55,652 nucleotides of DNA from an uncultured bacterium. Lineage in GTDB: Bacteria > Verrucomicrobiota > Kiritimatiellia > RFP12 > UBA1067. The stretch spans positions 1 through 55,652 of the forward strand of contig CACZDG010000015.1 of assembly GCA_902779865.1 (NCBI GenBank). Reading direction: 5' to 3'. A model generated the notes under the pieces. The model had not been told where the DNA came from. It made no database searches and saw only the letters and a program-made list of their open reading frames with translations. Positions 687 through 22,798 of this stretch are shown here, piece by piece. The translations under genes were made by a program, and so were the position numbers. The stretch's first letter is position 1. Each line of letters begins with the position of its first letter.

Positions 687-874
687 CAGACAATTCAAGA
701 CTTTGCGTTCGACGCATCGTTATGGCTCTGGTGAAACCTGGAAAATTTTACTGTGAGAGCCTGCGACGTGGAGAATGCGCCCACTGGGCGTATCTTCTTC
801 CGTGGCTTCTCACAGGGCTTTCCAGGGCCTCACCAGAACTGCGGCAAGGGATTGCGCCCTCTTTCTTTTGCCGC
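687..874 (+). ncRNA. structured RNA, copy 1 (novel candidate leader RNA)
   Basis: About 188 nt of predicted RNA. Visible helices, 5' to 3': hairpin TGCGT 704-708 / ACGCA 712-716 with TCG loop; a long rod made of 728-734/830-836 (CTGGTGA), 737-744/819-826 (CCTGGAAA), 752-758/808-814 (TGTGAGA), 759-761/804-806 (GCC) and a terminal helix 775-782/786-793 with loop ACT; then a 3' hairpin 841-847/868-874 (GCGGCAA) enclosing GGG 848-850 / CCC 857-859. Copy 2 at 22608-22798 has the same helices in the same order with different paired bases, so the structure is supported by covariation. It starts 7 nt after an extended -10 and ends 36 nt before the ATG at 911, so a cis-regulatory leader is likely. An independent small RNA is the alternative. 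It matches no riboswitch class I can recall. Confidence 0.75.
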
Positions 875-910
875 GATCGCAACAAGGGCAAATGAAAGGA
901 AAAATGAGAG

Positions 911-1552
911 ATGGAAAGTCGCACAAGTAAGGCATTCAAGAAGTGGATGACCAACGAGGACGTTCGGCGTCTTGTCGGTAAAGGCCCCTATGCGCAGGGG
1001 ACAGCCGAGGATCGAGTTACTGCGGTGAACAATGAACTTTGCCATTTTTCATTGACGACCAGTGTGACCGTCTTTGATAAAGAAGGACGAGTTGTGCCAG
1101 ATTTGAAAGCATTTGTCGCTCATGTCAAAGCGATCAAGGACTATTTGTCGCGTGGGCACTATCACGCGAAGCGAAACAAGTATGGAGTTGAATATTTTGC
1201 TGATTTTCTGGAGTGGCTTTCAGGGCGTACAAGATTGAACACCTATGAGAAGGTTGTTTCGTATCTGGACGGCGAAGACTTACCGAATGAGTCATTGCCA
1301 AGTGGAGATGTGTTCAAGGCGTATCTTCTCGACAAATATGGACGCATTACCGGTAACGTGCGCTCCATTTGGAGTCGCGTTCAGAGAGTTCTTCGGACGG
1401 TGCCGCACACGCATGGACATCCGACGTTTGACGAGTTGGTCGCCATTTTTAGGAACATGCACGATTATGTTGGCAATGCCGATAGTGCTGCGAATTGCAA
1501 AGTCGCAATTCGGCATTACATGCGTGCTTTATATGGGCGTACCGAGATTTAA
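911..1552 (+). CDS. hypothetical protein downstream of structured RNA 1
   Basis: A 213-residue soluble protein with no signal peptide or membrane segment. It is rich in charged and aromatic residues and mostly helical in character (AIKDYLSRGHYHAKRNKYGV, then FADFLEWLSGR). I recognise no domain. The start ATG at 911 lies 10 nt after AGGA 897-900; an ATG at 904 opens only a short out-of-frame peptide. It is the first gene of the co-oriented run reaching 11595 and is separated from the structured RNA by 36 nt, so that RNA probably governs its expression. Nucleic-acid binding is conceivable from the charge pattern but is only a guess. Confidence 0.7.
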   Translation: MESRTSKAFKKWMTNEDVRRLVGKGPYAQGTAEDRVTAVNNELCHFSLTTSVTVFDKEGRVVPDLKAFVAHVKAIKDYLSRGHYHAKRNKYGVEYFADFLEWLSGRTRLNTYEKVVSYLDGEDLPNESLPSGDVFKAYLLDKYGRITGNVRSIWSRVQRVLRTVPHTHGHPTFDELVAIFRNMHDYVGNADSAANCKVAIRHYMRALYGRTEI

Positions 1553-1577
1553 CAACAAAACAGAAAGGATCATATTC

Positions 1578-2000
1578 ATGTTACTTGGATGCGAGAACGG
1601 GATGGCCAATGAACGCCACACAGTACCACAAGAACAGGTTCTGGCGATTGGAATGGCTCATGGTCATATGTTGGATGTCCGTATTAATGAGAGGTCATCA
1701 TCTCAACGGGTACGCCCTAGGTTTTATCTAGTGGATGTTAATAAACCCTATTTGATAAATCCAAACCAGATTGAGTGTGTGGTTGGAGAATGGGATAAGG
1801 ACAAGACAAGATATGGCGTGAGAATCTTCTTTACAAGTGGCAACAGCGTGTGGTGCGAAGAAGCTGCTGCACGTGATATCATTTCCGAATTGCTATGGGG
1901 GAAAGATAAAGATGATGACCTTGCTAGTAGCGATTGTTTCAAGGCATTGGAAAAATTTGATGCGGCAAAGAAGAAGTCAAAGCCTTTCCATTTAGGTTGA
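1578..2000 (+). CDS. hypothetical protein, 140 aa
   Basis: The frame is open from 1245, but ATG 1578 is preferred because GAAAGGA sits just upstream and the earlier part overlaps the 911 gene. The protein is cytosolic. A central beta-rich stretch (YLINPNQIECVVGEWDKDKT, then RYGVRIFFTSGNSVWCEEAA) resembles a small barrel followed by a helix, and the C-terminus is acidic and then lysine-rich (KFDAAKKKSKPFHLG). It begins 25 bases after the previous stop and ends 32 bases before the next start, which supports co-transcription. Family unknown. Confidence 0.65.
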   Translation: MLLGCENGMANERHTVPQEQVLAIGMAHGHMLDVRINERSSSQRVRPRFYLVDVNKPYLINPNQIECVVGEWDKDKTRYGVRIFFTSGNSVWCEEAAARDIISELLWGKDKDDDLASSDCFKALEKFDAAKKKSKPFHLG

Positions 2001-2032
2001 TGTCTAACAGAATTGAAACTAGGAGAACAAAA

Positions 2033-4300
2033 ATGAGCAACATCGTTATGTGTGAATACTGTAATGGAACAGGAATCGCCAAATGTGAAACGTGTGGTGG
2101 CAATGGCAAAGTGACATGCCCAGAATGTGACGGAAGTGGCAAGTCCTACTTTATTTGCCCTGAATGCGATAATGGTCGCGTACCTGATCCTCGCGCAATG
2201 GACGACGATGAGACAATGACATGTCCTACTTGCCATGGTGAATATAAAAAAGAGGTTGGTGCCTGCAAGACTTGCAAGGGCACGGGTAAGGTGGATTGCG
2301 AGCCGTGTCATGGAAGTGGTAAGGTTGAGTGCCAGGCGTGTAGTGCCACGGGGAAGTTTGATGTTGATAAGATTGTGAGGGCAGCGATTGTATCGGATTG
2401 GTATGATGTAGAGACGGACAGGAAAGTCATGAAGCATGCGGTGTCCGACGAAGATATCACGATGTTGAAGTCTGCGGCGGAGCAGGGGCATGGCGGTTCG
2501 TGCTACGTGCTTGGCGTACTCAAAGGCGGCAATTGCATTGCCTATGCGGAGGATGGAGATTCATATTTCGCGAAGGGGGCGCAAGCAGGCGATGCAGATT
2601 GCCTTTACGCTCATGCATTTGTTTTATTGCATAAAGGACATCCTGAACAGAAAGAAGCGATAGAGTGCCTTGAACGCTCTGCCAAAAAGGGGAATGTCCA
2701 TGCCCTTGTTGACCTTACGCTGCATTTGCTTGGCAAGATGGATGAATCGGGCATTGCGTCTGAAGACGAGAAGGCACTGCAGTATTGCGACCGCTTGTCT
2801 AACGTAAAAGCTGCAGATGGGTTGAGCCAGCATTTGGTTGAAAAGGCAAACGCAATCGGAAAGTGTTTGCCCAAGATTGCCAAGAATGATGTTGCGGCAA
2901 TGTTTGAGGTTGGGTCGATATGTGATACGTTGTACAAGACAACTGGTAGCAAGCAGGACAAGGCGCTGGCCGAAACTTATTTAGCGAGTGCGGCAAAGAA
3001 AGGGAACGCCGATGCCGTCAGGCAACTTGCGGAGCATAATAGTAAGGACAACCTGTCAGGCTCTATAGAGATACTTGACAAAGCGGCGAAAGGCGGAGAC
3101 AAGAAGGCGGCAGAACGCCTGCAGAGTATTATGCAGGAGTGTCTTACTGGAATTCGCGGCTGGGGTATCCGCGGAGGGACGGAAACTTCTGACAAGTTTG
3201 AAGAATTAAAAGAATGTGCTAGATCTGGTGTGCTTGTCGCGATAAGATTTCTTATAGATGCATATAAAAGTGGAAGGCTATATGAAGGGGTACCGCCGGC
3301 AACCGTTCCAAGTTTCGGCCTTGGAAGTTCCGCTAAGGCTGGGACTTGTGATTTGGATACAGTTGATCGGGAGTCTATTGCATATTGGACGGAGATGGCT
3401 GCGAAAACTGGCGATGGTAATTCCATGCTTGATTATTCCTTAATTTGTCGTGACGGGAAAGGCCGCGATAAGGATATCAATGTGGCTTTTGCATATACGT
3501 GTGAGGGATTTCTGAAAGGCGGATCAAGGCGTAGGGCATTGCGGTTACTCGCTGAGTTTTATAGATGCGCGTACTTTTCCATGCCTGACAGTCAAAAGGC
3601 CTCAGAACTTCTGACTCGTTCTGCAAAAGCTGGTTACTTACCTGCTATTGTTGCAATGGGGGTTCGTTACTGTAAAGGGAAAGGAGTTAAAAAAGATTTG
3701 AGCGAGGCAAAACGCCTATTTGAGATTGCGGCAGATAACGGCTCTAAGGATGCTAAAGAAGAACTCAAAAACATCCCGAAGTCTGTGAAAACCGGCACAA
3801 AACAGATCTGCGGCATTACGAGCAAGTTTATCAAGGACAAAGATCCACTTCCTGCCTATGTCTTAAGCGACTACGAGAAGGCAAAAACCGGAAAGCTATG
3901 GTCGGCAAAACTTGAGAAACAAATCAAGGAGAAAAACAAAGCAAGAAATGCTAAGCTGAAAGAACCTAAAAAACGTTGGTTGTTTGTGGCACTCGGAATC
4001 GTTGGCGGGGTGTTGGGACTCCACTTTCTGTATGTGAAGCGAATGTTCTGGTTCTGGACGTACTGGATTGTGGCGACGTTGGGCGTCTTGCAAATTGAAG
4101 TTGAAGCATTTAGAAATCTGCTTGCGCATGCCTCGCCTACGGTAGCAAAAATACCTATATTTGCTACTGCTGCCGTTCTGATTCTTATTGGCAGTATTTG
4201 CCTGATGAAGAAGGATGGCAAAGGTCGTACGATGAAAGATTTTCGCAAGCGCAAGCCAGTTGATCTTTTGGACTGGGCCAATAAAATCCGACAAAATTAA
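2033..4300 (+). CDS. DnaJ-type zinc-ribbon / Sel1-repeat / TM2-like membrane protein
   Basis: A 755-residue protein; start ATG 2033 has AGGAG seven bases upstream. Residues 1-115 carry eight CxxC motifs, most of the DnaJ CxxCxGxG type (CEYCNGTG, CETCGGNG, CPECDGSG, CKTCKGTG, CEPCHGSG), enough for four zinc sites. Residues about 140-590 are Sel1/TPR-like helical repeats (e.g. AAEQGHGGSCYVLGVL, SAKAGYLPAIVAMGVRYCKG). Near residue 650 come basic residues and two or three hydrophobic segments. The first (GIVGGVLGLHFLYVKRMFWF) resembles a TM2 domain, and the protein ends in a basic cytosolic tail. There is no J domain, so it is not a DnaJ. By family knowledge, Sel1 repeats scaffold protein complexes and CxxCxGxG fingers bind unfolded protein. 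A membrane-tethered adaptor role is inferred. Confidence 0.8.
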   Translation: MSNIVMCEYCNGTGIAKCETCGGNGKVTCPECDGSGKSYFICPECDNGRVPDPRAMDDDETMTCPTCHGEYKKEVGACKTCKGTGKVDCEPCHGSGKVECQACSATGKFDVDKIVRAAIVSDWYDVETDRKVMKHAVSDEDITMLKSAAEQGHGGSCYVLGVLKGGNCIAYAEDGDSYFAKGAQAGDADCLYAHAFVLLHKGHPEQKEAIECLERSAKKGNVHALVDLTLHLLGKMDESGIASEDEKALQYCDRLSNVKAADGLSQHLVEKANAIGKCLPKIAKNDVAAMFEVGSICDTLYKTTGSKQDKALAETYLASAAKKGNADAVRQLAEHNSKDNLSGSIEILDKAAKGGDKKAAERLQSIMQECLTGIRGWGIRGGTETSDKFEELKECARSGVLVAIRFLIDAYKSGRLYEGVPPATVPSFGLGSSAKAGTCDLDTVDRESIAYWTEMAAKTGDGNSMLDYSLICRDGKGRDKDINVAFAYTCEGFLKGGSRRRALRLLAEFYRCAYFSMPDSQKASELLTRSAKAGYLPAIVAMGVRYCKGKGVKKDLSEAKRLFEIAADNGSKDAKEELKNIPKSVKTGTKQICGITSKFIKDKDPLPAYVLSDYEKAKTGKLWSAKLEKQIKEKNKARNAKLKEPKKRWLFVALGIVGGVLGLHFLYVKRMFWFWTYWIVATLGVLQIEVEAFRNLLAHASPTVAKIPIFATAAVLILIGSICLMKKDGKGRTMKDFRKRKPVDLLDWANKIRQN

Positions 4301-4367
4301 TGATCGTTTGGAACGGGCCAAAAAAATTTAAAAAGCTGACCAATAAAAACCAGAAAGGAAAAAGAAA

Positions 4368-5183
4368 ATGAAAAGCATGCTGATAGTACTCGGCGCAATC
4401 GCAGTTGCGGTTGTTGCATATTTCGCCATTGCTCCGCGCGAACAGCGCGAGGCGATGCTCGACAAGGTGGCAGTGTTGGGCGATTCGTCTGGCGGTGAGA
4501 AAACGCCGCGAATCGTCAGGGATCAGCAGCGCAAGGAGCGCATCAGGCAGGAGAACTCATGGACACCCGAAAACAGGACACGTCATCCTATTGAATACTG
4601 TCAGGCTCAGCTTGAGGAAATTCAAAGATATTCTAACGAGCTGGAGGCACGTGCGCATGAGAAGGGTTGTGCAATAGCTGCAGTGAAGCGAGAAGTCGAC
4701 AACATGGAAGCCATGTCTAAAGCGTATGATAAGTTTCTTACAGAAGCGGTGGTTAAGTATGAAGAGTGTGAAACAGCCAATTCATGGCCAGCAACGGCAG
4801 GTGGGTTTCTGCTTTCTAGGGAGAAAATGCAGGACAAGATGATAGATGCTGCGCAGAAAATTGCAGAAAATAAGTTGCGTATGGTGAGTAAAAAGAACCA
4901 GATTGTGTATCTTGAGAAGACTTTGAAAGCAACTCAGGATGAGCAGAAACGCGTTGGCAAGATTCGCGAACATATCCAGAACACAATCAGCGACCAGCGA
5001 ATCAAAAAAGTCATAGATGGAGACAATAGCATCGTAGCGGCACTTAATGAGATTGAAGACGCTGTTGGCAGATTGGGCGTGTCTTATGACGATCCTCCGA
5101 TAGAGAACATTGTCCAGCCGGATGACAAAACGACACGTGAGGAGTTGTTTAAGAAAATTATGGCAGAATATACCAAGAGGTAA
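4368..5183 (+). CDS. N-terminally membrane-anchored coiled-coil protein
   Basis: 271 residues. Residues 3-22 (SMLIVLGAIAVAVVAYFAIA) form one transmembrane anchor or uncleaved signal. The remainder is highly charged and heptad-like (EYCQAQLEEIQRYSNELEAR, KNQIVYLEKTLKATQDEQKR), predicting long coiled coils. There is no recognisable catalytic motif. It resembles phage-shock PspA-type proteins only in being a charged coiled coil. A purine-rich ribosome binding site (AGAAAGG) precedes the ATG. The next gene starts 3 bases after its stop, so translation is probably coupled. It may partner the anchored proteins on either side. Confidence 0.7.
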   Translation: MKSMLIVLGAIAVAVVAYFAIAPREQREAMLDKVAVLGDSSGGEKTPRIVRDQQRKERIRQENSWTPENRTRHPIEYCQAQLEEIQRYSNELEARAHEKGCAIAAVKREVDNMEAMSKAYDKFLTEAVVKYEECETANSWPATAGGFLLSREKMQDKMIDAAQKIAENKLRMVSKKNQIVYLEKTLKATQDEQKRVGKIREHIQNTISDQRIKKVIDGDNSIVAALNEIEDAVGRLGVSYDDPPIENIVQPDDKTTREELFKKIMAEYTKR

Positions 5184-5186
5184 ACG

Positions 5187-5822
5187 ATGCTTGTACTCGT
5201 CTTGCTTGTTGGTGCAGTTGTAATATACATGTTTGGGGATGATATCTCAAAATTTATAGAAACACTCTCCGAATTTCCAGAAACACATCGTAAAGGTTGT
5301 GGTGCGGGGTGCTTGGCAGTTGTTCTAACTGGAGTCGCTTTTGTTTATTTTGCGCATGTGATGTCCGAGAAAGAAAAGGAGGCCGAGAAAGCAAGAGTTG
5401 TCGCCGAGGAGAGGCAAAAACACGAAGCCGAGGTTAGGCGAAGCGAGATGAAAATAGAGAAAATCAAAGCGTTCGCTCTTAAGGAGATGCCTAGTGCTTG
5501 GAGGACATACCAATCAATCCAAAGTGAGATTGACGTACAAAATGGCAAGATAGATGACTTATCGAACTCGCTTCGGTCGTTTGACAGGAATCCTGAGAGA
5601 GATGAGGATTTCTTGCGTATTCGCGGACTTCGCGACACCATGGTTCAGACCCGTGACACATTATGGAAGAGGTTGGAGGATGCGTATTTGGCGGCGAAGA
5701 AATTCGAAGCGGCACCAACAAGCAGAAACAATGAGGAACTCCTGAAGAAGGCACTTGAGGAGGGGATTTCCGAAGCAGATGCAGCGGCGAAGACGTTCAA
5801 GGAAATGAGGTTGGAGAAATGA
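5187..5822 (+). CDS. membrane protein with cytosolic coiled coil, paralogue of next gene
   Basis: 211 residues. Two hydrophobic segments (residues 1-15 and about 36-56) precede a charged helix (EKEKEAEKARVVAEERQKHE) and a conserved C-terminal domain of about 120 residues. That domain is clearly homologous to the downstream lipoprotein: SFDRNPERDED aligns with EFDRNPDADEG, and EDAYLAAKKFEAAPTS with EEAYIAYKKFEASPSH. The start ATG follows GAGG by 6 bases, and the stop overlaps the next start by ATGA. Function unknown. Confidence 0.7.
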   Translation: MLVLVLLVGAVVIYMFGDDISKFIETLSEFPETHRKGCGAGCLAVVLTGVAFVYFAHVMSEKEKEAEKARVVAEERQKHEAEVRRSEMKIEKIKAFALKEMPSAWRTYQSIQSEIDVQNGKIDDLSNSLRSFDRNPERDEDFLRIRGLRDTMVQTRDTLWKRLEDAYLAAKKFEAAPTSRNNEELLKKALEEGISEADAAAKTFKEMRLEK

Positions 5823-6349
5823 GTAGTGATAGGGTCGCAATATTGCTGGTAAGTGTTTGTTTGGTTCTTGCTGGATGCGTTGTGCCGCCTTCGCATCCTT
5901 CTGTCCCGACAGCTAATCCTGCAGTTGCAGAACGCAAGGTATTGCCGTCATCGCACCACAAGAAACGCACGGAGGCGCAGATTCGGATACTGCAGGACTT
6001 CGCAATAAAGGAGTCGCCAGAGGTATGGCGGATCATCCAGACTATGCGCGCCGAAATATCAACCAATGGTGCGAAACTAAAACAATTGCGAAACGAACTT
6101 CTGGAGTTTGACAGAAACCCTGATGCGGATGAGGGTTATAAGTCGCTTGAGAATGGCTTGAGGGAATTTAGCCACGCTTATGATGCTCTTTTAGATAGTT
6201 TGGAAGAGGCTTATATTGCGTATAAGAAATTTGAGGCGTCGCCAAGTCACAAGGGCTATCAAGACGTTATGAAGCACGCCATAGAGAATGGCATTCAAGA
6301 GGCCACTATGGCGACGGAGCGTTATAAGACGATGTCTCGACAAAAGTAA
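5819..6349 (+). CDS. lipoprotein paralogous to the preceding membrane protein
   Basis: 176 residues with a type II signal peptide: basic start, hydrophobic ILLVSVCLVLA, lipobox LAGC, acylated Cys at residue 20. The mature domain (residues 50-176) repeats the C-terminal domain of the upstream gene (FDRNPDADEG, EEAYIAYKKFEASPSH), so the two arose by tandem duplication followed by different membrane anchoring. The 4-base ATGA overlap implies translational coupling. Lgt, encoded at 43972, would supply the lipid. The product is expected at the periplasmic face of the inner or outer membrane. Confidence 0.75.
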   Translation: MSSDRVAILLVSVCLVLAGCVVPPSHPSVPTANPAVAERKVLPSSHHKKRTEAQIRILQDFAIKESPEVWRIIQTMRAEISTNGAKLKQLRNELLEFDRNPDADEGYKSLENGLREFSHAYDALLDSLEEAYIAYKKFEASPSHKGYQDVMKHAIENGIQEATMATERYKTMSRQK

Positions 6350-6382
6350 ACAACAACACTACACAAAGCAAAGGAAGAGACA

Positions 6383-7069
6383 ATGAAAAACAACGCACAC
6401 TGTGGTAGTGAGTTTCCGGGAATGAACGAGTTCTCCGGCGTCAAGATAAACGCGGACGAGGTTCGCGCTGTCGCGAAGAAGTTCGAACGACAGATGAAAT
6501 CGGGGAGGGTGTTCTTCCCTGAAGATGCGCCATTCGCGATGAAGTGCGAGACGCTGCTGAATAACGCGGCTTCCGAAGTTGACTGGCTTTCCGTGTCAGA
6601 AAGGTCGTTCTCGGCAACAGACAAGGTGCTTTATTCAAAGGACGATCTGCCAAAGGTGGTGTCTGTCGGTGAAAGTGACATCATTGCATTGATAGACAAT
6701 ACAAAGAAAGGCTTGTTTGGTAATCTGGCGAAGAAAGCATGCGCAGAAGGCTCTATTATAACAACGAAAGGGGTGCTGGCGTATCGTTTAAGAGAGGGCA
6801 AACTAGTGAATGGGTTTGCAACATGGCGGACAATTGCAGTCTCGTGCGATGGTGGTAATGGTTGGCTTTTCAAGCCTAAGAGTAAGCCGACATCGGTTAA
6901 TAGAGAGTTTCCTTGTGGTTGGTATATTATCATGCCTTTCTATAATTTTCCTGAGAAAAAGCTAGAGCGGAGTGTGGATGAGATAGGAAGGCATTTATGG
7001 CTGATTGCACGTGGCAAGGGTGCTAATTTTGACTACGACGATTGGGCGCCGGAGGCGGCTGACGAATAA
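6383..7069 (+). CDS. hypothetical protein, paralogue of 7091 gene
   Basis: 228 residues, cytosolic, preceded by a good ribosome binding site (AAGGAAGAGACA-ATG). A central segment matches the next gene: DIIALIDNTKKGLFG...ITTKGVLAY...GFATWRTI against DVLMLLDDADSKGFKLFG...LFTKKGVVAL...GFISWEAY. The alternation of a short helix and beta strands ending in a conserved Trp recalls bacterial PH-like domains, but that is only a pattern impression. The C-terminus is acidic (NFDYDDWAPEAADE). Confidence 0.7.
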   Translation: MKNNAHCGSEFPGMNEFSGVKINADEVRAVAKKFERQMKSGRVFFPEDAPFAMKCETLLNNAASEVDWLSVSERSFSATDKVLYSKDDLPKVVSVGESDIIALIDNTKKGLFGNLAKKACAEGSIITTKGVLAYRLREGKLVNGFATWRTIAVSCDGGNGWLFKPKSKPTSVNREFPCGWYIIMPFYNFPEKKLERSVDEIGRHLWLIARGKGANFDYDDWAPEAADE

Positions 7070-7090
7070 ATCAAAGAAAAGGAGGCAACA

Positions 7091-7705: not shown

Positions 7706-7750
7706 GTTCCATGCCTATATTGTAGCGGCGGTTGTAATAGGATAAATTCA

Positions 7751-14691: not shown

Positions 14692-14703
14692 AGCGTCTAC
14701 GAC

Positions 14704-14819: not shown

Positions 14820-16577
14820 ATGGAAAGAAAGCCGCTTCAGATTCCCTACGGCGTTGCAGACTTCAAGATCGTCCGCAACGAAGGTTTATATTACATCGAC
14901 AAGACCGGTTACATACCGGTCCTCGAACAGGCCGGGCGGTTCCTTTTCTTCGTTCGCCCGCGCCGGTTCGGCAAGTCGCTGTTCTTGAACATGCTCCGCT
15001 GCTACTACGACCTTGCGGAGAAGGACAACTTCGACTCGCTCTTCGGCGACTTGGAAATCGGGAAGAATCCCACGGAGAACCGAAATCGCTACCAGGTGCT
15101 GACGCTTGACTTCTCGCAAGTGAACAAGGGCGAGGGCAAGACCTTGGAGGAACGCTTTGCGTCATACATTGGCGGATGCCTCGATGGTTTTGTGCGCACA
15201 TACGCCGCCATGTACGGCGAATCATTCGTGAATAGTGTGCTGGCCGCGCAGTCGGGCGACAAGTTCAACAAGCTCGTGCTTGAGGCCAGGCGGCTCGGCC
15301 ACCACCTCTACCTGATGCTCGACGAGTACGACAACTTCACGAACGCGATGCTCCGCGCCGAAGGGGGTGTTGATTACCGCTCCATCACCCACGGGCAGGG
15401 CTTCTACCGCGAGTGGTTCAAGTCGTTCAAGGGGAACTTTGACCGTATCTTTATGACGGGCGTCTCTCCCGTCACGATGGACGACCTTACGAGTGGGTTC
15501 AACATCGCATCGAACATCTCGCAGGACGAGTTCTGCAACACGATGGTCGGCTTCTCCGAAAAGGAGGTGCTGAAGCTGTACACCGACTTCAAGGGCACGG
15601 GGATGTACAAGTCTGGTGAACCGGCCGACTTCGTGCGCGACACCAAGCCGTGGTACGACGGCTACTGCTTTGCGGAGGACAAGCGCGGGAAGGAGACCGT
15701 GTTCAACAGCGACATGTCGCTCTACTTCCTCAACTCGCTTGTGAAGACCGGTAAGCCGCCGAAGGACTGGGTGGACCGGAACATCGCGACCGACTACGAC
15801 AAGCTCGAGATGATCGCCGACATCCAGCGGCGCATGGATCCGGAACGGGCGGAGGACGTCATGTCCCCGATAGAAGCCCTCGCAGCCGAAGGTGAAATCT
15901 GCTTCCCGCTCAGCGAGTCATTTCCCGCCGACCAGATACAGGCCCCGGAGAACTTCCTGTCGCTTTTCTACTACTATGGCATTGTCACGATGAAGGAGCG
16001 GCGCGAAGGCGCTGATTGGTTCAAGATGCCGAATGTCTGCGTCAAACGCCAAGTGTTCGACTATCTCCGCAGCCGCTACGAGCACTCCCGCTCCCCGAAC
16101 TGGCAGGAGTGGGCGCACCTCGCCCGCATGTTCGCCTATCGCGGCGAGTGGCATCCGTTCCTTGAACGCCTCGCGGCGGACTTCGCGGACACCACGCCTG
16201 TGCGCGGCGGCATCCAGGGTGAACACCGCATCCAGGGCTATATGCAGGCGGAGTTCGGGCATCTCGATTTCTATCTCATGGCACCCGAGATGGAGCTCTC
16301 GCGTGGCTTCTGCGACTTCTGCCTCTTTCCGGAGCGATACCGTTCCGCCGACGTGCTGCACAGCTACCTCGTGGAGTTGAAGTTCTCCAAGGCGGACGCC
16401 TCTGAGGCGGACTTGGCCGCAAAGTATCAGGAAGCGCTCGGCCAGCTCGCGAAGTACCGCGCCGACAAGTCGGTGCCGATGCTCGCACGCGGCACGACTT
16501 TGCACCAGATTGTGTTCCAGTTCAAGGGCTCGGAGCTCGTCTGCCTTGAGCAGATCGCCGAAGAGCAGATGCCGTAG
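14820..16577 (+). CDS. AAA-ATPase_like / PD-(D/E)XK nuclease-domain protein
   Basis: 585 residues, matching the very common gut-bacterial family (PF09820 AAA-ATPase_like plus PF08011 PDDEXK_9). The N-terminus has the family's IPYGVADFKIVRNEGLYYID, a degenerate P-loop RPRRFGKSLFLNML (residues about 46-59) and Walker B LMLDEYDN. SPVTMDDLTSGFNIASN and PWYDGYCF are further family landmarks. The C-terminal nuclease-like part has HLDFYLM...GFCDFCLFPE and YLVELKFSKADASEADLAAK (the ELK core). The physiological role of these proteins is unknown; they multiply within genomes and are proposed mobile or defence-related. Translation probably starts on a leaderless mRNA. A 10-bp hairpin (16602-16629) follows the stop. 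Confidence 0.9.
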   Translation: MERKPLQIPYGVADFKIVRNEGLYYIDKTGYIPVLEQAGRFLFFVRPRRFGKSLFLNMLRCYYDLAEKDNFDSLFGDLEIGKNPTENRNRYQVLTLDFSQVNKGEGKTLEERFASYIGGCLDGFVRTYAAMYGESFVNSVLAAQSGDKFNKLVLEARRLGHHLYLMLDEYDNFTNAMLRAEGGVDYRSITHGQGFYREWFKSFKGNFDRIFMTGVSPVTMDDLTSGFNIASNISQDEFCNTMVGFSEKEVLKLYTDFKGTGMYKSGEPADFVRDTKPWYDGYCFAEDKRGKETVFNSDMSLYFLNSLVKTGKPPKDWVDRNIATDYDKLEMIADIQRRMDPERAEDVMSPIEALAAEGEICFPLSESFPADQIQAPENFLSLFYYYGIVTMKERREGADWFKMPNVCVKRQVFDYLRSRYEHSRSPNWQEWAHLARMFAYRGEWHPFLERLAADFADTTPVRGGIQGEHRIQGYMQAEFGHLDFYLMAPEMELSRGFCDFCLFPERYRSADVLHSYLVELKFSKADASEADLAAKYQEALGQLAKYRADKSVPMLARGTTLHQIVFQFKGSELVCLEQIAEEQMP

Positions 16578-16601
16578 GTAGCGACAAGTGGTTTGTGGCT
16601 C

Positions 16602-16629
16602 GTGCGAAGCCATAAAAGAGGCTTCGCAC
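16602..16629 (+). terminator. hairpin after the ATPase gene
   Basis: A perfect 10-bp stem (GTGCGAAGCC 16602-16611 / GGCTTCGCAC 16620-16629) with an ATAAAAGA loop, 25 bases after the stop. No T-run follows directly, so it would be a factor-dependent end or an RNA-stability structure rather than a textbook intrinsic terminator. Confidence 0.45.
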
Positions 16630-17134
16630 AGAGACGGGGGATTTTTGGTAGCGGAGGGTTCTACGACATCGCTCTCGAGCCGCAGTTCCTTCGCTGGCCG
16701 GAGATCGCCCACGCGCCCCGTGACGCTCGTCGGCATAAACTTCAACCCGAAGAAGTGCAACATCGACATGCCGATCATTTAAAGAGTGTAAAGTCGTAAC
16801 GTCCGGACGCCACATCGCGTGTGTCGTGTAGATGATCTTGCAGGAGAGCAGCGGATTCTTGCGCACGAGCGCGCGCATCTGCGTTTTTCACCCATACGTA
16901 TTGGGATTTGGAAACAACCATGACAACTTTCAAGAACAACATTGTCCTGCGGGCGCACCTTGAACATTCAGAATCGTGACAGTTTGAGGATCGGCAAATG
17001 GGCACGGGCGAGTTGATACGCCTGTCGCGAAGCGATCAGGTTGGGTGAGCGCGAAGCGCGAACTGCGAAGCAGCCGCAAGGCCCCGCGCCCGTGCGCCAA
17101 AGGCAAGTTGTTTCAAAAAGTGAGACAGTCCACC
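16630..17134. other. intergenic region with a decayed minus-strand gene and a multi-hairpin element
   Basis: No intact gene. On the minus strand, protein-like pieces in different frames (IPIRMGEK near 16900; RKNPLLSCKIIYTTHAMW near 16830) look like a decayed gene of unknown family. The start (16620-16660) resembles a degraded copy of the promoter region at 14780-14812 (TTCGCAC...GACGGGGGATTTTTGGTA). From 16999 to 17099 an outer stem encloses three hairpins with GAA loops, listed separately. Confidence 0.4.
16999..17099. repeat. cloverleaf-like element with three GCGAAGC-type hairpins
   Basis: Outer arms TGG-GCACGGGCG (16999-17010) and CGCCCGTGC-g-CCA (17087-17099) pair over 12 bp with one bulge. 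Inside are three hairpins with GAA triloops: 17021-17040 (CCTG/CAGG plus TCGC-GAA-GCGA), 17049-17059 (GCGC-GAA-GCGC) and 17063-17073 (CTGC-GAA-GCAG). It lies 3' of both neighbouring genes. It has no tRNA features (no anticodon arm, TTC loop or CCA acceptor logic). Confidence 0.55.
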
Positions 17135-17779
17135 TCAGTCCACATCGCGGAGGGCGGAGAGAATCGCCTCCGGCGTTATGGCCTTGCCTTTGACGCGAAG
17201 GACGATTATGCGCGTGACAAGCGCACTTTCGATGTCGGAGAGGCACACGCCGTCCTTGCGGTCTTGCAGAATACGAAGGAGATCCAACGCCGTGAGCTTG
17301 TACTTCGGGTCGCGTCTGGGCACGAAGAGGTCCGTGAACTTCATGCCGAGGTAGGTTAACGGGCGTATGGTGGTCTCCAGCACGTGGTATGCGGGCGCGA
17401 GCATTAGGCTACGCCTGAGCGGCCGTGCCGCGCAGAGCAGTTTCGGGATGAACTCCGAAACGTACAGCAGGGTTACCGCCGCGCCGAAGCTCCAAACAAC
17501 GTTGGCCGTGGTGTAGTCGGCGAAAAGCGCACTGGCAAGCGCGGCTGTCGATGATGAGTAGATCACGCTTGCGAGGTTGTTGCCGATCAGGAGGGTGGTC
17601 GTGGTACGCGGCATCGAGGATAAAGCCTTCTGGACTGCCTTTGCCTTTTTGCCGCCTTCACGGGCGAGGTGAAGGATTCGCTCACGGCTCACGGAGAGGA
17701 ACGCTGTCTCGGCACCGGCGCAGAACGCTGCAAGGGCGAGTGCGAACAACGCGCAGATGACTAGCAGCAGCACGTTCAT
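17135..17779 (-). CDS. CNNM (DUF21) domain membrane protein without CBS domains
   Basis: 214 residues. The CNNM transmembrane domain is recognisable by FCAGAETAFLSVSRERILHL (the AETA motif), LLIGNNLASVIYSS and YVSEFIPKLLCA (matching GEIxPK). Four hydrophobic segments fall before residue 150. The usual CBS pair and CorC_HlyC domain are missing; only a short tail follows (LTALDLLRILQDRKDGVCLSD). Family members are implicated in Mg2+/Co2+ or Na+ transport. Its ATG overlaps the stop of the upstream full-length paralogue by ATGA, so the two are probably translated together and may form a heterodimer. Confidence 0.85.
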   Translation of the reverse strand: MNVLLLVICALFALALAAFCAGAETAFLSVSRERILHLAREGGKKAKAVQKALSSMPRTTTTLLIGNNLASVIYSSSTAALASALFADYTTANVVWSFGAAVTLLYVSEFIPKLLCAARPLRRSLMLAPAYHVLETTIRPLTYLGMKFTDLFVPRRDPKYKLTALDLLRILQDRKDGVCLSDIESALVTRIIVLRVKGKAITPEAILSALRDVD

Positions 17780-19047
17780 GCGTCGTCCTCCTCCGTCTTT
17801 ACAACGGCGTCGTCCGTTTCGGCGATCAGCTCCTCGTCGGTATCGGCGGCGGGGCGTTTCAATACTTCTAGGCGTACTTGCGTCACACGCCGCTTGCGCC
17901 GCTTGAGCACCGTTGCGCGGCAGCCGTCAGCCTCGATCTCCTGCCCGACGTGCGGGATGCGCTCGGCGTGGAACTGTATCCAGCCGGAGAGTCGGTCTGC
18001 GTCCTCCGCCTCCAGCTCCAAGTCGAGTTCGCGGTTGATCTCGTCGAGGCTTGCCCGGGCGTCGATCTCCCATACGTTTGCGCCCTTGCGCACGATCGCG
18101 GGCTCCTGGTTCGGATTGGAAAATACGCCAGGGCCAACTATCAGCTCAAGCACGTCGCTGGGCGATATTATGCCGGCCGTGCCGCCGTACTCGTCAAGGA
18201 CCACGGCCAGCGGCTTGCGGCTTTTCGCGAAGGTCACGAGAAGGTCGTCCAGCGTCACGGTCTCAGGCACGAATAGCGCGTCCTCGATCTTGCCGGTCTC
18301 CACGTCGATGATTCCCTCGATGGCGTCGGGCGTCCTGTTGTACACCGGTAGGTAGCGGTGCTTCGCAGATTTGCACGCGGCGGCACGGAACGCCTCGTCG
18401 CGGTCCGTGTCGTAGCCCTCGATATCGACGCGCGGCGTCATTTCGTCGTTCGCGCACAGTTCCGAAAGGCGCAGTACGCCCTCGACCATCTCAGCCGCCG
18501 CCATCGGGACTTCGCCATGTTCGGCGGCGGATTCTAGCACGGACACGAGTTCGCCGTCCGAAAGGGCGCGTCTCTCCCGCGCAAGCGCCGGGGCGAACGC
18601 GCGCGACGTGAAGCGCAGGAAGTGGTTGAGCGGAGAGAGAAGGGCACGCCACCACAAAAGGACGCGCGCGCACGCCGGTGCCACCTGCTCCGCGTACTTT
18701 AGGGCGAGGCGCTTGGGCGTGATCTCTCCGAACACTAGCAGGCCGAGCGTCATTACGGGAATCGCGAGCCATCCGCCGCCGTCTATCGCGCCGGCGAAGA
18801 GGCGGTATCCGATCGTCGATATGAGAAAGTTTACGAACGTGTTGGCGATGAGCAACGTGGAGAACAGCACGGCCTGGTCGGAGAGACACCGGCCGATAAG
18901 TGCGTCGGCCTTTTCGCTGCGCGCCTTGATCCGCGCGCGCTGTGCGCCGGAAAGCGAGAACAGCACTGTCTCCGATCCCGAGAAGAACGCCGAGAGGGCG
19001 AACAGGAAGGGCAGCGCGGCGATGGCCACAATGTAATTTACTTGCAT
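17776..19047 (-). CDS. CNNM/CorC-type transporter with CBS pair and CorC_HlyC domain
   Basis: The product is 423 residues from ATG 19047 (MQVNYIVAIAALPF). The frame extends upstream to 19134, but that part precedes the promoter. Domains: DUF21/CNNM membrane domain (residues 1-175; FFSGSETVLFSLSGAQRARI, GEITPKRLALKYAEQ), CBS pair (about 195-320; DEMTPRVDIEGY, LAVVLDEYGGTAGIISPSDV) and a C-terminal CorC_HlyC domain (ANVWEIDARASLDEINRELD). By family knowledge it is a cation (Mg2+) transporter or efflux regulator in the inner membrane. A TACAAT -10 element 8 bases before the ATG predicts a leaderless mRNA. Confidence 0.9.
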   Translation of the reverse strand: MQVNYIVAIAALPFLFALSAFFSGSETVLFSLSGAQRARIKARSEKADALIGRCLSDQAVLFSTLLIANTFVNFLISTIGYRLFAGAIDGGGWLAIPVMTLGLLVFGEITPKRLALKYAEQVAPACARVLLWWRALLSPLNHFLRFTSRAFAPALARERRALSDGELVSVLESAAEHGEVPMAAAEMVEGVLRLSELCANDEMTPRVDIEGYDTDRDEAFRAAACKSAKHRYLPVYNRTPDAIEGIIDVETGKIEDALFVPETVTLDDLLVTFAKSRKPLAVVLDEYGGTAGIISPSDVLELIVGPGVFSNPNQEPAIVRKGANVWEIDARASLDEINRELDLELEAEDADRLSGWIQFHAERIPHVGQEIEADGCRATVLKRRKRRVTQVRLEVLKRPAADTDEELIAETDDAVVKTEEDDA

Positions 19048-19190
19048 GTGGAGATATTGTACCATTTGGCGGCGTGGGAGGCAAGTGCAGGCTTTCCTGT
19101 TTTTTTGCTTGTGCGGTACGAGGGGATTTGGCATAATAACCGCCTGAAGTCCCAGTGCGTGGACAGATGTGAAATACAGAGGCTGAGTTT
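19048..19190. promoter_or_regulatory. divergent promoters for CNNM and GH99-like genes
   Basis: Minus strand: TGG-TACAAT (19056-19061 on the plus strand), 8 bases from ATG 19047, no ribosome binding site. Plus strand: TTTGG-CATAAT (19132-19137), giving a leader of about 45-50 bases to ATG 19191 with GAGG near 19180. Both are extended -10 elements with T-rich upstream sequence. Confidence 0.55.
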
Positions 19191-20741
19191 ATGAAGAAAA
19201 TCATGTTGTCATTGTTAGTCGCTGCGGTGGGCGCGGTGACGTCCGCTGCGCAGTTGGCGGTGGAGGGAAATGCCGAAATGGCAAACGGCAAACTAGTTGG
19301 GCTTTTCTACTTCCTGTGGCTCGGCGAGCACGGAGGCAAGGGGCCCTACGACGTGACGAAGATACTCAAGGCGGATCCGGACGCGGGTAAGAAACCTGAA
19401 AGCGCGCTGTGGGGTCCGTGGGGCGCGTACCACCACTGGGGAGAGCCTCTGTACGGGTACTACTTCTCCGACGACGAGTGGGTCGTTCGCCGTCACATGA
19501 AGCTCATCATGCAGGCGGGGATAGACTTCCTCTTCTTCGATACGACGAACGCCGTAATCTACAAGCATAACGCGATGCTGGTGATGCGGGTTCTTCAGGA
19601 ATACCACGATGCCGGGTGGCGCATCCCGAAGGTGATGTTCTACACGAATACGGCGTCCGGCAAGACGGTGCGGCGCATATACGACGCCATCTACAAGCTG
19701 GGTTTTGCAAAGGATACGTGGTTTGCATTGGACGGGCGTCCGGTGATTGTCGCGAAGGAGGAGGACTGCGACGATGAGACGAAGGCGTTCTTCACGATTG
19801 TCAAGTCGCAGTGGCCGAACGAGCGCGCGAAGAAGGGCGGGTGGCCGTGGATGGATTTTACGCGTCCGCAGCGCGTGTTCCCAGGCGAGAAGGTGGCGAA
19901 GAGCGTGATGAACGTGTCCGTGGCGCAACATCCGACATGTCGTTTCGGTGATTCCGTCATGTACGGCGAGAAGGGCAACTGGGGACGTGCGTTCCACAAC
20001 GGCGCGAACGACCCCGCGCCGGATGCGTGGACGAAGGGATACAATTTCCAGGAACAGTGGAACCGGGCGCACGAGGCGAAGCCGGACATCGTGCTCGTCA
20101 CGGGCTGGAACGAATGGATTGCCGGACGCTGGCGTCGGAAGGACCGTCCGGATCGCCCTGTGATGTTCGTCGATTGCGCGAACTTCGAGTATTCGCGCGA
20201 CATAGAGATGATGCGCGGCGGGTACGGCGACAACTACTTCCTCATGTTACGCGACAACGTACGCCGATTCAAGGGTCTTTCGGATGATGTTGCGCCCAAT
20301 CCGCCGCGTTCGCCGAAACGCTACCGCTGCTTTGCCGACTCGGGAATGCCGCGCAATCACGCCGGGTATGGCACCAACTACGTGAACCGCACACAGCGCA
20401 ACGTGCCGGAGTGGATCGAGGTTGCGCACGACAATACGGCCGTAACGTTCCGCGTGAAAACACGGCAGTCGGTCGTAGGCAAGGATGGCGAGGGCGACTT
20501 CATGCAGATCTTAGTGGACGGCAAGGTGGTGAACCGCCTCGGCGAAGTGAAGGTTTCCGGCGATACGATGAGGCTTACGGTACCGCGCACGGCACTGTGC
20601 CTGAAAAGCGGGGAGTTTCGCTTCGGGTTCAAGTTCGTCGATTCGACCGTGGCGTGCAGGAACGCGCTTGACTGGTACGAATACGGCGTAGTCGAACCCC
20701 TTGGCCGTGTGGAGTTCATCTACATTGGCTGTGACTCATAG
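19191..20741 (+). CDS. secreted GH99/GH71-like glycoside hydrolase
   Basis: 516 residues with a signal peptide (KKIMLSLLVAAVGAVTSAAQ). The catalytic-type domain covers residues about 35-365 and has landmarks of the glycoside hydrolase 99-like/71-like (WbsX-type) group: LVGLFYFLWLGEHGG, YYFSDDEWVVRRHMKLIMQA, GIDFLFFDTTNA, GRPVIVAKEED, and GWNEW near residue 305. Residues 380-516 form a beta-rich accessory domain (VAHDNTAVTFRVKTRQSVVG). By family knowledge it would hydrolyse alpha-linked mannan or glucan in the periplasm or outside the cell; the substrate is not determinable. Its intergenic space with the CNNM pair holds divergent promoters. Confidence 0.8.
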   Translation: MKKIMLSLLVAAVGAVTSAAQLAVEGNAEMANGKLVGLFYFLWLGEHGGKGPYDVTKILKADPDAGKKPESALWGPWGAYHHWGEPLYGYYFSDDEWVVRRHMKLIMQAGIDFLFFDTTNAVIYKHNAMLVMRVLQEYHDAGWRIPKVMFYTNTASGKTVRRIYDAIYKLGFAKDTWFALDGRPVIVAKEEDCDDETKAFFTIVKSQWPNERAKKGGWPWMDFTRPQRVFPGEKVAKSVMNVSVAQHPTCRFGDSVMYGEKGNWGRAFHNGANDPAPDAWTKGYNFQEQWNRAHEAKPDIVLVTGWNEWIAGRWRRKDRPDRPVMFVDCANFEYSRDIEMMRGGYGDNYFLMLRDNVRRFKGLSDDVAPNPPRSPKRYRCFADSGMPRNHAGYGTNYVNRTQRNVPEWIEVAHDNTAVTFRVKTRQSVVGKDGEGDFMQILVDGKVVNRLGEVKVSGDTMRLTVPRTALCLKSGEFRFGFKFVDSTVACRNALDWYEYGVVEPLGRVEFIYIGCDS

Positions 20742-21300
20742 ACTCCACAATGCGCAGGGCACCCGCATGATTTCCATAAAATAATAATAATAAAAACAGA
20801 TTCACGCCCAAAGCCGCAATAAGAGCTTCGCCCGAGACTTTCACGTTAAAGGTAGGGGTTACGCGCCAATACCCCATTCCACGAGGTTCCTATGGCGTTT
20901 TGGCGTATCCCCCTACTTGCGCGATTCCCGCGAATGGGCTTTATTTGCTCAATACACCCATAATAGCGAAATGGCTTTTTATGCATTTTGGAGATACATC
21001 ACACAGATGCGCGGAGACACAGGAAAACAAGGTGAATCTGAAATTTCAACACCAAAACTATCTGTGATTCTGTGTCGATGAGTGAGAAATTGCCTTGAGC
21101 GATCTTTTGCGGACTAAAACACAACCCGGCCAAAAATACGGCGTTTCACGGTGCTTTTCAGACGTTAACTTCAACAATTGCCTACCATTCGGTGTTTTGT
21201 GAAGTCATGCTTTCTTTATATGGTCGTTTTCAGGGCGACGAAGCGATTCTAGGCGGCCTATAATACGGGTAGAACGTCGGATTGGTCGGGGTACACGAAC

Positions 21301-21409
21301 GTGCTAGACCTGGGTGTGACAACTTGCTAGACCTAGGTGTGGCAACTTGTTAGACCTGGGTGTGGCAACTTGTTAGACCTGGGTGTGGCAACCAGTTAGA
21401 CTGGGTGTG
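21301..21409. repeat. 23-bp tandem repeat, about 4.7 copies
   Basis: The units 21301-21323, 21324-21346, 21347-21369, 21370-21392 and a partial 21393-21409 share TTAGACCTGGGTGTGGCAAC; the third and fourth are identical. The units abut without spacers, so this is not CRISPR. An iteron-like binding array or recombination substrate is possible. Confidence 0.85.
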
Positions 21410-21580
21410 CGGGCCTCATACACCCTGACTAGTGAATACCTCATGCGGCATGGCGCGTCTGTAACTTCAAATGTGCCATTCAGGGCAAAATGCGCAATTG
21501 CGAGTTATGCTCGTAGTAGCAATTGTAAACCGCGCTACCTTGAAAGCCAAAAAGGCTTTGTAACCAGCTTCGTGGCAGTG

Positions 21581-21615
21581 TGCCCTGTGCCTCACGAGCG
21601 AGACAGACGGTTCTT
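21581..21615 (+). repeat. 35-bp direct repeat, left of VapBC
   Basis: Matches 22507-22541 with one mismatch. It contains the small palindrome CTCACGAG(C/T)GAG and ends in ACAGACGGTTCTT. Together the two copies bracket the toxin-antitoxin module at a distance of about 925 bases. Confidence 0.8.
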
Positions 21616-21654
21616 GCGGAGAGAAGAAAAATGAGAATTACATGCAAGTTGTAT

Positions 21655-21683
21655 TTGACTTTTCGAAAAGAATATAGCATAAT
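21655..21683 (+). promoter_or_regulatory. vapBC promoter
   Basis: TTGACT (21655-21660) and CATAAT (21678-21683) with a 17-base spacer. The -10 sits in a small palindrome (CATAATG), plausible for autoregulation by the antitoxin. Confidence 0.55.
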
Positions 21684-21715
21684 GATACCACTTCCCTATC
21701 AAAAGGATTTATGCA

Positions 21716-22045
21716 ATGAGCGCACTGCTAGTAAAAGATCCACCAACCGGGCTCTGTGACTGGCTGAAGACCGAGGCGAAGTTCAATCGCCGAAGCGTCA
21801 ACCAGCAGATTTTGATTTGCCTGGAATGGTGCATGAAGACGTACGGAGACGCACAGTTCCGTAATCCGTTCGGCACTTCGTCTGCTGGAAATGATGGTCA
21901 CAGAGGCTTGCACGGCGCTGAGCTTGCAAGGAAATTGGCGGCGCTTGATGCTGTGTCCCCCCGGGACGCTGCTTCTATGAAGCGCGATGCGTCGCGCCTT
22001 AGAAAGTCCAAGGCCAGGGAGCATTCCTATGCCTGTTTTGATTGA
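21716..22045 (+). CDS. antitoxin, ribbon-helix-helix (FitA/VapB-like)
   Basis: 109 residues. The N-terminus has the FitA/Arc-type pattern of a short beta strand then two helices: SALLVKDPPTGLCDWLKTEA then NRRSVNQQILICLEWCM. This part should bind the operator as a dimer. The C-terminus is basic and flexible (ASMKRDASRLRKSKAREHSY), suited to wrapping the toxin. The ribosome binding site is AAAAGGA. Its stop overlaps the toxin start by 17 bases, typical of vapBC operons. Confidence 0.75.
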   Translation: MSALLVKDPPTGLCDWLKTEAKFNRRSVNQQILICLEWCMKTYGDAQFRNPFGTSSAGNDGHRGLHGAELARKLAALDAVSPRDAASMKRDASRLRKSKAREHSYACFD

Positions 22046-22433
22046 CACGGATGTTGCGATTAATCTGATGCGGCAAAGTCCCTACACGCTGGACTGCCTT
22101 GCGCAATGCCAGGACGCGGTTTTCATCTCGTCAATTTCGGTTTCAGAACTTTACTTTGGCGCGTATAATTCCGAGCGCCCAGAAAAGAACGTCGCCCTGC
22201 TTCAGGCCTTCCTGGGGAATTTTCAAGTGCTCACGATTACCTATGGAGTAGCGCATCTCTTTGGAAAACTCAAAGCGTTGCTCAAAAGGCAATCTGTTCA
22301 AGTTGCGCCATTTGACTTGATGATTGGTTCAATAGCCTTGGAGAATGGTTGCATGGTGGCGACTGGCAACATCAGGCATTTTCGCCATATAAAAGAGTTG
22401 CAGTTGAGCGATTGGATCAGGGGCACCATATAG
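22029..22433 (+). CDS. VapC-type PIN-domain ribonuclease toxin
   Basis: 134 residues from ATG 22029 (the open frame extends to 21987, but PIN proteins start at the first strand). The acidic metal-binding set is complete: D6 and D8 in LIDTDVAINL, E40 in SVSELYFGA, D96 in PFDLMIGSIALENG, and the N in ATGNIRHF. By family knowledge it is a Mg2+-dependent endoribonuclease cutting tRNA or rRNA, neutralised by the adjacent antitoxin. Confidence 0.88.
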   Translation: MPVLIDTDVAINLMRQSPYTLDCLAQCQDAVFISSISVSELYFGAYNSERPEKNVALLQAFLGNFQVLTITYGVAHLFGKLKALLKRQSVQVAPFDLMIGSIALENGCMVATGNIRHFRHIKELQLSDWIRGTI

Positions 22434-22506
22434 GGCTTCTGAATTTTCCCCAAATTCCCGCGTGAGATATTGCCACTGATCGGCAGTATGTAGTAGAGGT
22501 GCGGTT

Positions 22507-22541
22507 TGCCCTGTGCCTCACGAGTGAGACAGACGGTTCTT
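22507..22541 (+). repeat. 35-bp direct repeat, right of VapBC
   Basis: Second copy of the 21581-21615 repeat (one C/T difference inside the palindrome). It lies 27 bases before the inverted repeat preceding structured RNA copy 2. Confidence 0.8.
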
Positions 22542-22568
22542 TATGCGAATGCGAAAAAGTTTCATTTT

Positions 22569-22607
22569 CATGCGCACAGACGCATGGAATTATGGTAAAC
22601 TATCCGC
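22569..22607 (+). promoter_or_regulatory. inverted repeat and extended -10 before structured RNA copy 2
   Basis: CATGCG 22569-22574 / CGCATG 22581-22586 with loop CACAGA, then 9 bases to TGG-TAAACT (-10 at 22596-22601). The layout equals that at 649-680, including the ACAGA loop, although the arms differ in sequence. The predicted start is about 22608 in conserved AGACAATT. Confidence 0.5.
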
Positions 22608-22798
22608 AGACAATTTAAGAATCGTTGCATTCGATGCATCGGTTGGCACTGTTGGAACCTGAGAAATTTCATTGCGTGTGCCAGGCGAAGCAGAGAATGC
22701 ACCCGACCGGGTGCATATCTCTCTCGTGGGTCACGCAGGGCTTTCTCAGGGCCTCAACAGGACACGGGAAAAGAGTGTGCCCTCTTTCTTTTTCCGCG
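22608..22798 (+). ncRNA. structured RNA, copy 2 (novel candidate leader RNA)
   Basis: About 191 nt, same helices as copy 1: TGCAT 22626-22630 / ATGCA 22634-22638 with TCG loop; rod helices 22649-22654/22755-22760 (CTGTTG), 22658-22666/22742-22750 (CCTGAGAAA), 22674-22678/22732-22736 (GCGTG); AGAGA/TCTCT; and terminal helix 22697-22704/22709-22716 (ATGCACCC, loop GACC). The 3' hairpin is 22767-22772/22790-22795 (GGAAAA). Base changes relative to copy 1 are compensated on the partner strand. GTGCCCTCT (22777-22785) can alternatively pair perfectly with AGAGGGCAC (22806-22814), next to the ribosome binding site of the gene at 22826. Confidence 0.75.

Follow-up and report, generated by a model that had tools for sequence, protein, structure and literature searches.

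The DNA analysed here is a stretch of 55,652 nucleotides (nt) from an uncultured bacterium of the Verrucomicrobiota (Kiritimatiellia; RFP12; UBA1067), contig CACZDG010000015.1 of assembly GCA_902779865.1, called the window in what follows. It carries two copies of a structured RNA, each just upstream of a gene, and the parts of both RNAs and the two genes behind them lie on the forward strand. Both copies were found where an earlier reading of the sequence (the original prediction) had placed them, at 687-874 and 22608-22798, except that the ends 874 and 22798 overshoot by a few bases the U-tracts that close the RNAs at 860-869 (TCTTTCTTTT) and 22783-22793 (TCTTTCTTTTT). When the two copies were aligned, promoter-like region included, they showed about 75% identity. 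The gene behind copy 1 (911-1552) encodes a protein of 213 amino acids (aa) with no Pfam match; similar proteins were seen by eye behind other copies (L026, L098). The gene behind copy 2 (22826-28291) encodes an 1821 aa protein with BACON, Flg_new and CHB_HEX_C domains and an N-terminus that looks secreted.

The two copies share the same parts. In copy 1, a variable dyad (CCGCCC/GGGCGG, 649-666) lies just 5' of an extended -10 promoter element (TGCTATAAT, 672-680), and transcription probably starts at about position 687. Segment 1 (702-728) consists of hairpin H1 (702-719) and GGCTC (724-728). It is followed by the 5' strands of P2 (728-734, partner 830-836), P3 (737-744, partner 819-826) and P4 (751-758, partner 808-815). 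Segment 2 (757-782) runs from GAGCC, the partner of segment 1, to the P5 5' strand, the partner of segment 3. Segment 3 (786-805), the P5 3' strand with its flank, is common to a putative antiterminator (2:3) and a putative terminator (3:4), whose 3' strand would be segment 4 (839-859), directly before the U-tract. In copy 2, the variable dyad is found at 22569-22586, again 5' of the extended -10 element (TGGTAAACT, 22593-22601), and segment 1 (H1 and GGCAC) at 22625-22649. The 5' strands of P2 (22649-22654), P3 (22658-22666) and P4 (22672-22678) occupy 22649-22678, segment 2 runs from GTGCC (22678-22682, by eye) to the P5 5' strand (22678-22704), and segment 3, again the P5 3' strand and flank, covers 22709-22729. 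Then come the 3' strands of P4 (22731-22737), P3 (22742-22750) and P2 (22755-22760), together 22731-22760, and segment 4, the putative terminator 3' strand (22763-22782).

Among 35 type I homologues, TG, TA and the last T of the -10 element are invariant or nearly so. A copy-specific dyad ends a few bases 5' of it in most type I copies, and the 36 nt 5' of the -10 fold with a mean of -10.9 kcal/mol compared to -5.7 kcal/mol when shuffled (35 copies, though not every one of them); the dyad could be a terminator or an operator, among other options. The original prediction listed AGACAATT as constant. This sequence sits directly 3' of the extended -10 in both window copies and is common to them, but it is frequent rather than fixed among the other type I copies. 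GCCCTCTTTCTTTT, described as unpaired and constant, corresponds to the end of segment 4 plus the U-tract, and segment 4 is not simply unpaired. Near copy 2, a 41-nt direct repeat, 93% identical, was noticed at 21575-21615 and 22501-22541, its second unit just 5' of the RNA, and a 23-nt tandem repeat lies at 21275-21412.

All five helices listed in the original prediction were located in both copies. The folds were compared with dinucleotide shuffles, giving z = -7.2 and -6.4 for the two copies, with 0 of 200 shuffles equalling each. The inspected copies keep one order of elements: the promoter-like element, H1, a short strand beside P2, the long hairpin P2-P3-P4-P5 and, directly 3' of P2, a purine-rich segment followed by a U-rich tract. 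For covariation, 35 full-length type I copies taken from blastn matches were aligned, and RNAalifold predicted 43 pairs, of which 28 carry one or more double compensatory changes. In 53 diverse homologues, 96.4% of the cells pair, both partners have changed somewhere in 43 of 43 model pairs, and covariation scores 0.725, compared to 0.243 for shuffled and 0.07-0.14 for slid alignments; since this alignment was fitted to the model, its statistics lean towards it. Ten loop positions flanking P3 are 94-100% the same in these model-fitted copies (A 53/53, A 52/53, A 50/53, U 52/53; G 53/53, G 49/52, C 51/53; G 52/53, C 50/52, C 52/53), and the other loop positions vary. The RNA therefore has an aptamer-like conserved core with fixed unpaired nucleotides, as a riboswitch does. 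The many homologues with compensatory changes bear out the claim that selection acts on the RNA structure.

We then looked at the spread of the RNA. With blastn, 26 of 98 genomes (the host genome and relatives) gave matches at E<=0.001, all of them from the host's own family. A covariance model built from the type I relatives (R1), whose E-values are rough, detected the RNA in 86 of the 115 genomes of the host's family (15 of 19 genera) and, the family counted in, in 118 of the 162 genomes of its order (21 of 33 genera). Such a search of related genomes had been named beforehand as a check, and it returned many consistent homologues. Twenty weaker R1 matches, 17 of them below 80 bits, were inspected by eye; the helix order is kept and the sequences differ, so that they appear to be divergent subtypes. 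The host's own genome contains at least 10 members, its 18 matches at E<=1 including some antisense or chance ones. A pattern scan of public genomes yielded 59 stretches, many under the titles Kiritimatiellae, Verrucomicrobia or Lentisphaerae (rumen, gut) and others occurring by chance in unrelated bacteria. Out of 60 pattern-scan loci (one viral), 41 were scored with R1, the 19 from contigs largely seen already being left out. Eighteen of these 41 reached at least 36 bits, including Muribaculaceae, Bacteroidaceae, Bacteroides and Prevotella; two scored 17 bits and were taken as chance, and 21 gave no R1 match, including two Bacteroidota-titled loci (L149 and L157). A second model, R2, was built from the 53 diverse copies and found 3 to 6 matches (E<=0.01) in each of five genomes reached via the pattern scan. 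At E<=1e-6, R2 matched 17 of 296 Bacteroidota genomes (centre genome counted). In the host's phylum it matched 75 of 288 genomes, from 37 of 151 genera, and some of these were already in the model. It found nothing in 12 unrelated genomes, the same search being positive in 5 of 5 genomes known to carry the RNA. Phage and plasmid collections gave no match to the window copy. In IMG/VR, the type I pattern occurred in a single contig (L205), which the model did not match, and the Bacteroidota-type pattern occurred in 12 contigs, 7 of which were confirmed to carry the RNA. Altogether, the relatives carrying the RNA are gut Kiritimatiellae, with a reach into Bacteroidota and other Verrucomicrobiota that the original prediction had missed.

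Two pairings outside the core hairpin were then analysed. One joins the strand 5' of P2 to the strand that follows the P4 5' side (mean 4.91 versus 3.61 permuted, maximum 3.86; 102 rows), the other the P5 3' strand to the segment that follows P2 (mean 9.53 versus 7.11 permuted, maximum 7.47; 98 rows). Both were seen again in a set of 73 rows. Four rows (three antisense, one 3' piece without core) were dropped from the 102 to give the 98, and these are still within the 102-row test; the 73 rows are a set of 74 minus one antisense row, and the 34 rows labelled Bacteroidota in the U-tract and pairing counts include 3 viral contigs. At first we took the two pairings for pseudoknots, an idea that was dropped once both proved to be parts of one alternative secondary structure. 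When the folding program was constrained to form the pairing of the P5 3' strand with the segment after P2, the 5' region paired with the P5 5' strand in six examples, which completes a second fold. Duplex energies between the four segments were calculated in the 73 rows with 60 partner permutations. They were -20.2 versus -12.5 permuted for 1:2 (standard deviation, sd, 0.42), -23.5 versus -14.5 for 2:3, which is P5 (sd 0.45), and -24.6 versus -14.6 for 3:4 (sd 0.54), exceeding permutation by at least 18 sd overall and about 15 sd within taxonomic groups. The controls 1:3 (-9.2 versus -9.5) and 1:4 (-11.9 versus -11.6) were at chance in the same rows, and 2:4 was slightly above it (-13.2 versus -12.4, sd 0.32; 2.4 and 2.8 sd). 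The pairing of segment 1 extends past the GGCTC helix into the P5 5' strand (-9.5 versus -6.9 permuted, -7.8 within groups). By group, 5.3-6.7 U are found in the 10 nt that follow segment 4, compared to 1.6-3.1 further downstream; this U-tract directly 3' of segment 4 is a property of the groups and is absent from some rows. In the 35 type I rows, 93.5% of the cells of the second fold pair versus 34-55% when slid, and its covariation score is above all 500 shuffles. These results show, at the level of sequence, that the alternating complementarity 1:2, 2:3 and 3:4 of a four-strand attenuator, the core P2-P3-P4 around segments 2 and 3, and the U-rich tract after segment 4 are conserved. The helices H1 and nested P2-P5 of the original prediction are thus real, but they make up one of two competing folds; the single fold proposed there lacked the terminator (3:4 and the U-tract) and the alternative 1:2 helix.

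Our reading is that the RNA probably acts in cis as a transcription attenuator, being a riboswitch-like leader with which mRNAs begin. In the ON state, the core P2-P5 would form, segment 2 would hold segment 3 as an antiterminator (2:3), and RNA polymerase would read through. In the OFF state, segment 1 would capture segment 2, 1:2 acting as an anti-antiterminator, and free segment 3 for segment 4; the resulting 3:4 stem, which spans at most about 20 bp and has interruptions in some copies, together with the U-tract would be the terminator. We infer from the sequences the exchange of the two folds, the stop of the polymerase at the U-tract and the sensing by the P2-P4 core. The near-fixed internal loops between P2, P3 and P4 are likely a site where a small molecule or a protein would stabilise one fold. 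At ten f3-type loci (L206, L207, L208, L215, L216, L219, L220, L223, L225 and the second in L171), the distance from P2 to an ATG is 24-28 nt, which puts the start codon on or beside the U-tract and indicates that the RNA is a leader there. A leader peptide was also considered, starting from UUG, AUG or GUG in segment 4. Such codons were seen by eye in many copies and are absent in others (L014, L026, L039), and these bases are explicable by pairing with segment 3; this idea was set aside.

Several observations weigh against attenuation. In 66 of 73 rows the calculation favours the core fold, with group means of 4.4-12.5 kcal/mol, so that something must disfavour it for the OFF state; the RNA alone may be ON by default, or timing may let the terminator prevail. 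On the other side, the rival folds are fairly close in computed energy, which speaks for a switch. The putative terminator has a long loop (33 nt in the window copies), its 3:4 helix is weak or interrupted in some copies, copy 1 among them, and the best 3:4 stem is not directly adjacent to the U-tract in a share of the rows (at least 6 U in the next 10 nt in 57 of 98 rows). The 3:4 pairs of type I vary little, and two of five pair measures are not above shuffles there (both-side-changed pairs, 109/500; further pair types, 238/500), both being unremarkable because few of these pairs vary. Lastly, segment 4 of types I-III has a further possible partner downstream, with which it can form a hairpin, P6 (8.37 versus 6.59 permuted, maximum 6.92; 98 rows).

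This last pairing touches the strongest of the rival explanations, a mainly translational switch in which the pairings would mask or expose the ribosome-binding site and termination would play a minor part. In the RNA family f3, segment 4 contains a AAAGGAAG-like sequence that the start codon immediately follows (by eye), and the OFF fold would there block translation too. In type I, the downstream strand can pair with the Shine-Dalgarno region (mean 8.21 versus 7.59 permuted, maximum 7.86; 98 rows), exceeding permutation as P6 does, but rows with strong downstream pairing are no more frequent than expected (84 of 98, permuted mean 84.8). Bacteroidota largely do not use Shine-Dalgarno pairing. 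They nevertheless retain the architecture and the U-tract, which makes a mainly translational switch unlikely; P6 and the weaker pairing of the ribosome-binding region suggest an added translational layer in types I-III. We give somewhat less credit to a single compact RNA, protein-binding or catalytic, in which 1:2 and 3:4 would be simultaneous pseudoknots with no switch at all. The segments beside P2 do pair into the core and would be pseudoknots if there were one fold, and the computed preference for the core fits this too, but many rows would need segment 3 to be paired with segments 2 and 4 at once along most of its length, and segment 1 continues its pairing into the P5 5' strand beyond GGCTC. 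A processive-antitermination leader (EAR, put or JUMPstart-like) for reading long operons is very improbable: the cargo is unrelated between leaders, as it would be there, the window genes behind copy 1 are mostly on one strand up to 11595 and copy 2 precedes the 1821 aa gene, but the alternation of 1:2 and 3:4 is left unexplained and, in a look at 12 loci with open reading frames (ORFs) called by length only, L219 (and L216 in part) has one gene followed by opposite-strand ORFs. In these loci operon length appears not to be uniform, being long in the window and short in L219 and probably L216, and the long-operon idea was set aside. A stand-alone small RNA lying upstream of genes by chance would account for the promoter-like element and the terminator-like 3' end, but hardly for the start codons on or beside the U-tract in the ten f3-type loci, and we give it almost no weight. 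Behind 97 of 98 rows there is an ORF on the same strand, which says little since the search covered that strand only.

The first genes behind the leaders were scanned. The picks are heuristic and some are surely wrong (those of L002 and L136 were replaced by hand). The 98 rows gave 97 downstream references, 78 of which were hand-chosen for Pfam and PADLOC; a second set of 44 comprised 40 of 49 later picks and 4 plasmid genes. Among the commonest 25 of 51 Pfam families in the 78 genes were LRR_5 (5), PEP-CTERM (4), EcoRI methylase (3), SPFH/Band 7 models (2 each), Sel1 (2), FGE-sulfatase (2), KAP NTPase, glycosyltransferases and others; LRR/BspA proteins are among those encoded behind the leaders. 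Some of the 78 genes match anti-phage models, methyltransferases foremost. The 44-gene set includes a D12 DNA methyltransferase, DUF4007, PLD/SNF2 proteins, DarT, DUF6088, SPFH, sigma factors and TonB plug domains. Upstream control genes match defence models too, because 22 of 85 are protein kinases. No common pathway was found among the 78 and 44 first genes (commonest 25 of 51 and of 63 Pfam families). This agrees with the original prediction that unrelated downstream genes share a regulatory input, and it weakens a metabolite-pathway riboswitch but not a signal-sensing one. In a plasmid collection, blastn with one Bacteroidota copy gave seven named Bacteroidales records. Six were inspected, and R2 scored four of them at 41-46 bits (Prevotella, P. 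distasonis, B. finegoldii and Phocaeicola) and the other two weakly, at 24 and 18 bits. A DUF4433/DarT-like gene follows one well-confirmed plasmid copy (P. distasonis). The 24-bit match (L306, NZ_AP019725.1, 3478-3726) is directly before the beta-lactamase gene blaMUN-1 on Bacteroides uniformis pBUN1, and the second weak match is about 375 nt before a DUF6088-AbiEii pair in P. distasonis F1-28.

The exchange of cargo was seen directly in two genome comparisons (L066/L067 and L069/L070). The upstream region and the leader are 92-96% identical, the genes behind are unrelated, and the sequences part within or just after the U-tract. The leader behaves as a unit whose 3' boundary is the U-tract. 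The copy shared in one of these comparisons is without the usual promoter and 5' part (by eye) and may be a remnant. Similar leaders with different genes also suggested an integron or site-specific recombination site. In the host genome (92% complete), the integron integrase model TIGR02249 gave 7 matches, none above cut-off, and this reading was set aside, also because the breakpoint is the attenuator end. Upstream, 126 ORFs were collected and 85 were hand-chosen and scanned, 43 of them from type I loci. A Ser/Thr protein kinase gene precedes many type I leaders (e.g., L041, 1663-2904; 22 of the 85 ORFs), and the window ORF 109-534 resembles by eye the C-terminal part of these kinases; kinase, RNA and variable cargo may be one unit. 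At L049, L050, L052 and L040 (1424-1555), 3' pieces made of segment 4, U-tract and a P6-like part precede genes without the core. The sequence 5' of these pieces differs from the leaders, L049 and L050 being alike there (by eye). About 100 nt 5' of the subtype II and III leaders (e.g., L135, L136 and L138) are strongly alike between loci by eye, and may be a further 5' domain.

By such an attenuator, one signal could control many unrelated cargo genes. A more daring and tentative possibility is a new riboswitch class in which the P2-P4 core is itself the receptor for a general alarm or status molecule (e.g., a nucleotide second messenger). In Bacteroidota and Verrucomicrobiota, one signal would then switch acquired cargo of many kinds, anti-phage, toxin and surface genes among it, and newly arriving genes would plug in behind a leader that is already in place. 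DNA methyltransferases, a DarT-like gene, SPFH and surface proteins all have this device in front of them, and its ligand would reveal a common accessory-gene cue in major gut bacteria. The leader would also be a ready regulatory part for organisms with few tools.

Finally, we compared the RNA with known classes. In line with the original prediction, no catalogued class was matched: in the Rfam check named beforehand, nothing reached the Rfam 15 gathering cut-off over the RNAs. There were no such matches in the window, and those in sets of 5 and 20 loci were one abiF RNA and two tRNAs, all away from the RNAs. With relaxed cut-offs, window positions 600-950 gave 4 matches far below the cut-offs (best E 1.1) and seven loci gave 5 sub-cut-off matches, two of which overlap an RNA (mir-335 and ZFAT-AS1_3 models). 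No description of this RNA was found in a literature search that took in passages of the surveys PMC8040213 and PMC2864571; the thousands of candidates of PMC8040213 may include pieces of it. This is a multi-copy leader family of two phyla that has no match at Rfam 15 cut-offs and for which a clear mechanism can be proposed.

In trp-type attenuators, 1:2 pairing with a 3:4 terminator and its U-tract alternates with a 2:3 antiterminator. The logic of segments 1-4 is shared with our RNA, but the latter has a structured core P2-P4 around segments 2 and 3, precedes unrelated genes rather than one biosynthetic operon, is present in many copies per genome and has no established leader peptide. In protein-dependent attenuators (PyrR and ANTAR leaders), antiterminator and terminator helices compete as proposed here; unlike them, the present RNA has no Rfam relative found and no known binding protein. 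JUMPstart/ops and EAR place one leader before exchangeable gene clusters and have a different anatomy; our leader also fronts exchangeable genes, but it appears not to be limited to long operons. JUMPstart appears as a row in the motif table of PMC2864571. The same survey presents crcB and pfl RNAs as transcription-controlling riboswitch candidates with predicted terminators overlapping the motif. They resemble our RNA in having a conserved core overlapping a terminator, in forming 5' leaders of diverse genes and in occurring in several phyla; they differ from it in that its switching strand, the P5 3' strand, lies deep inside the core and the genes behind it share no common pathway.

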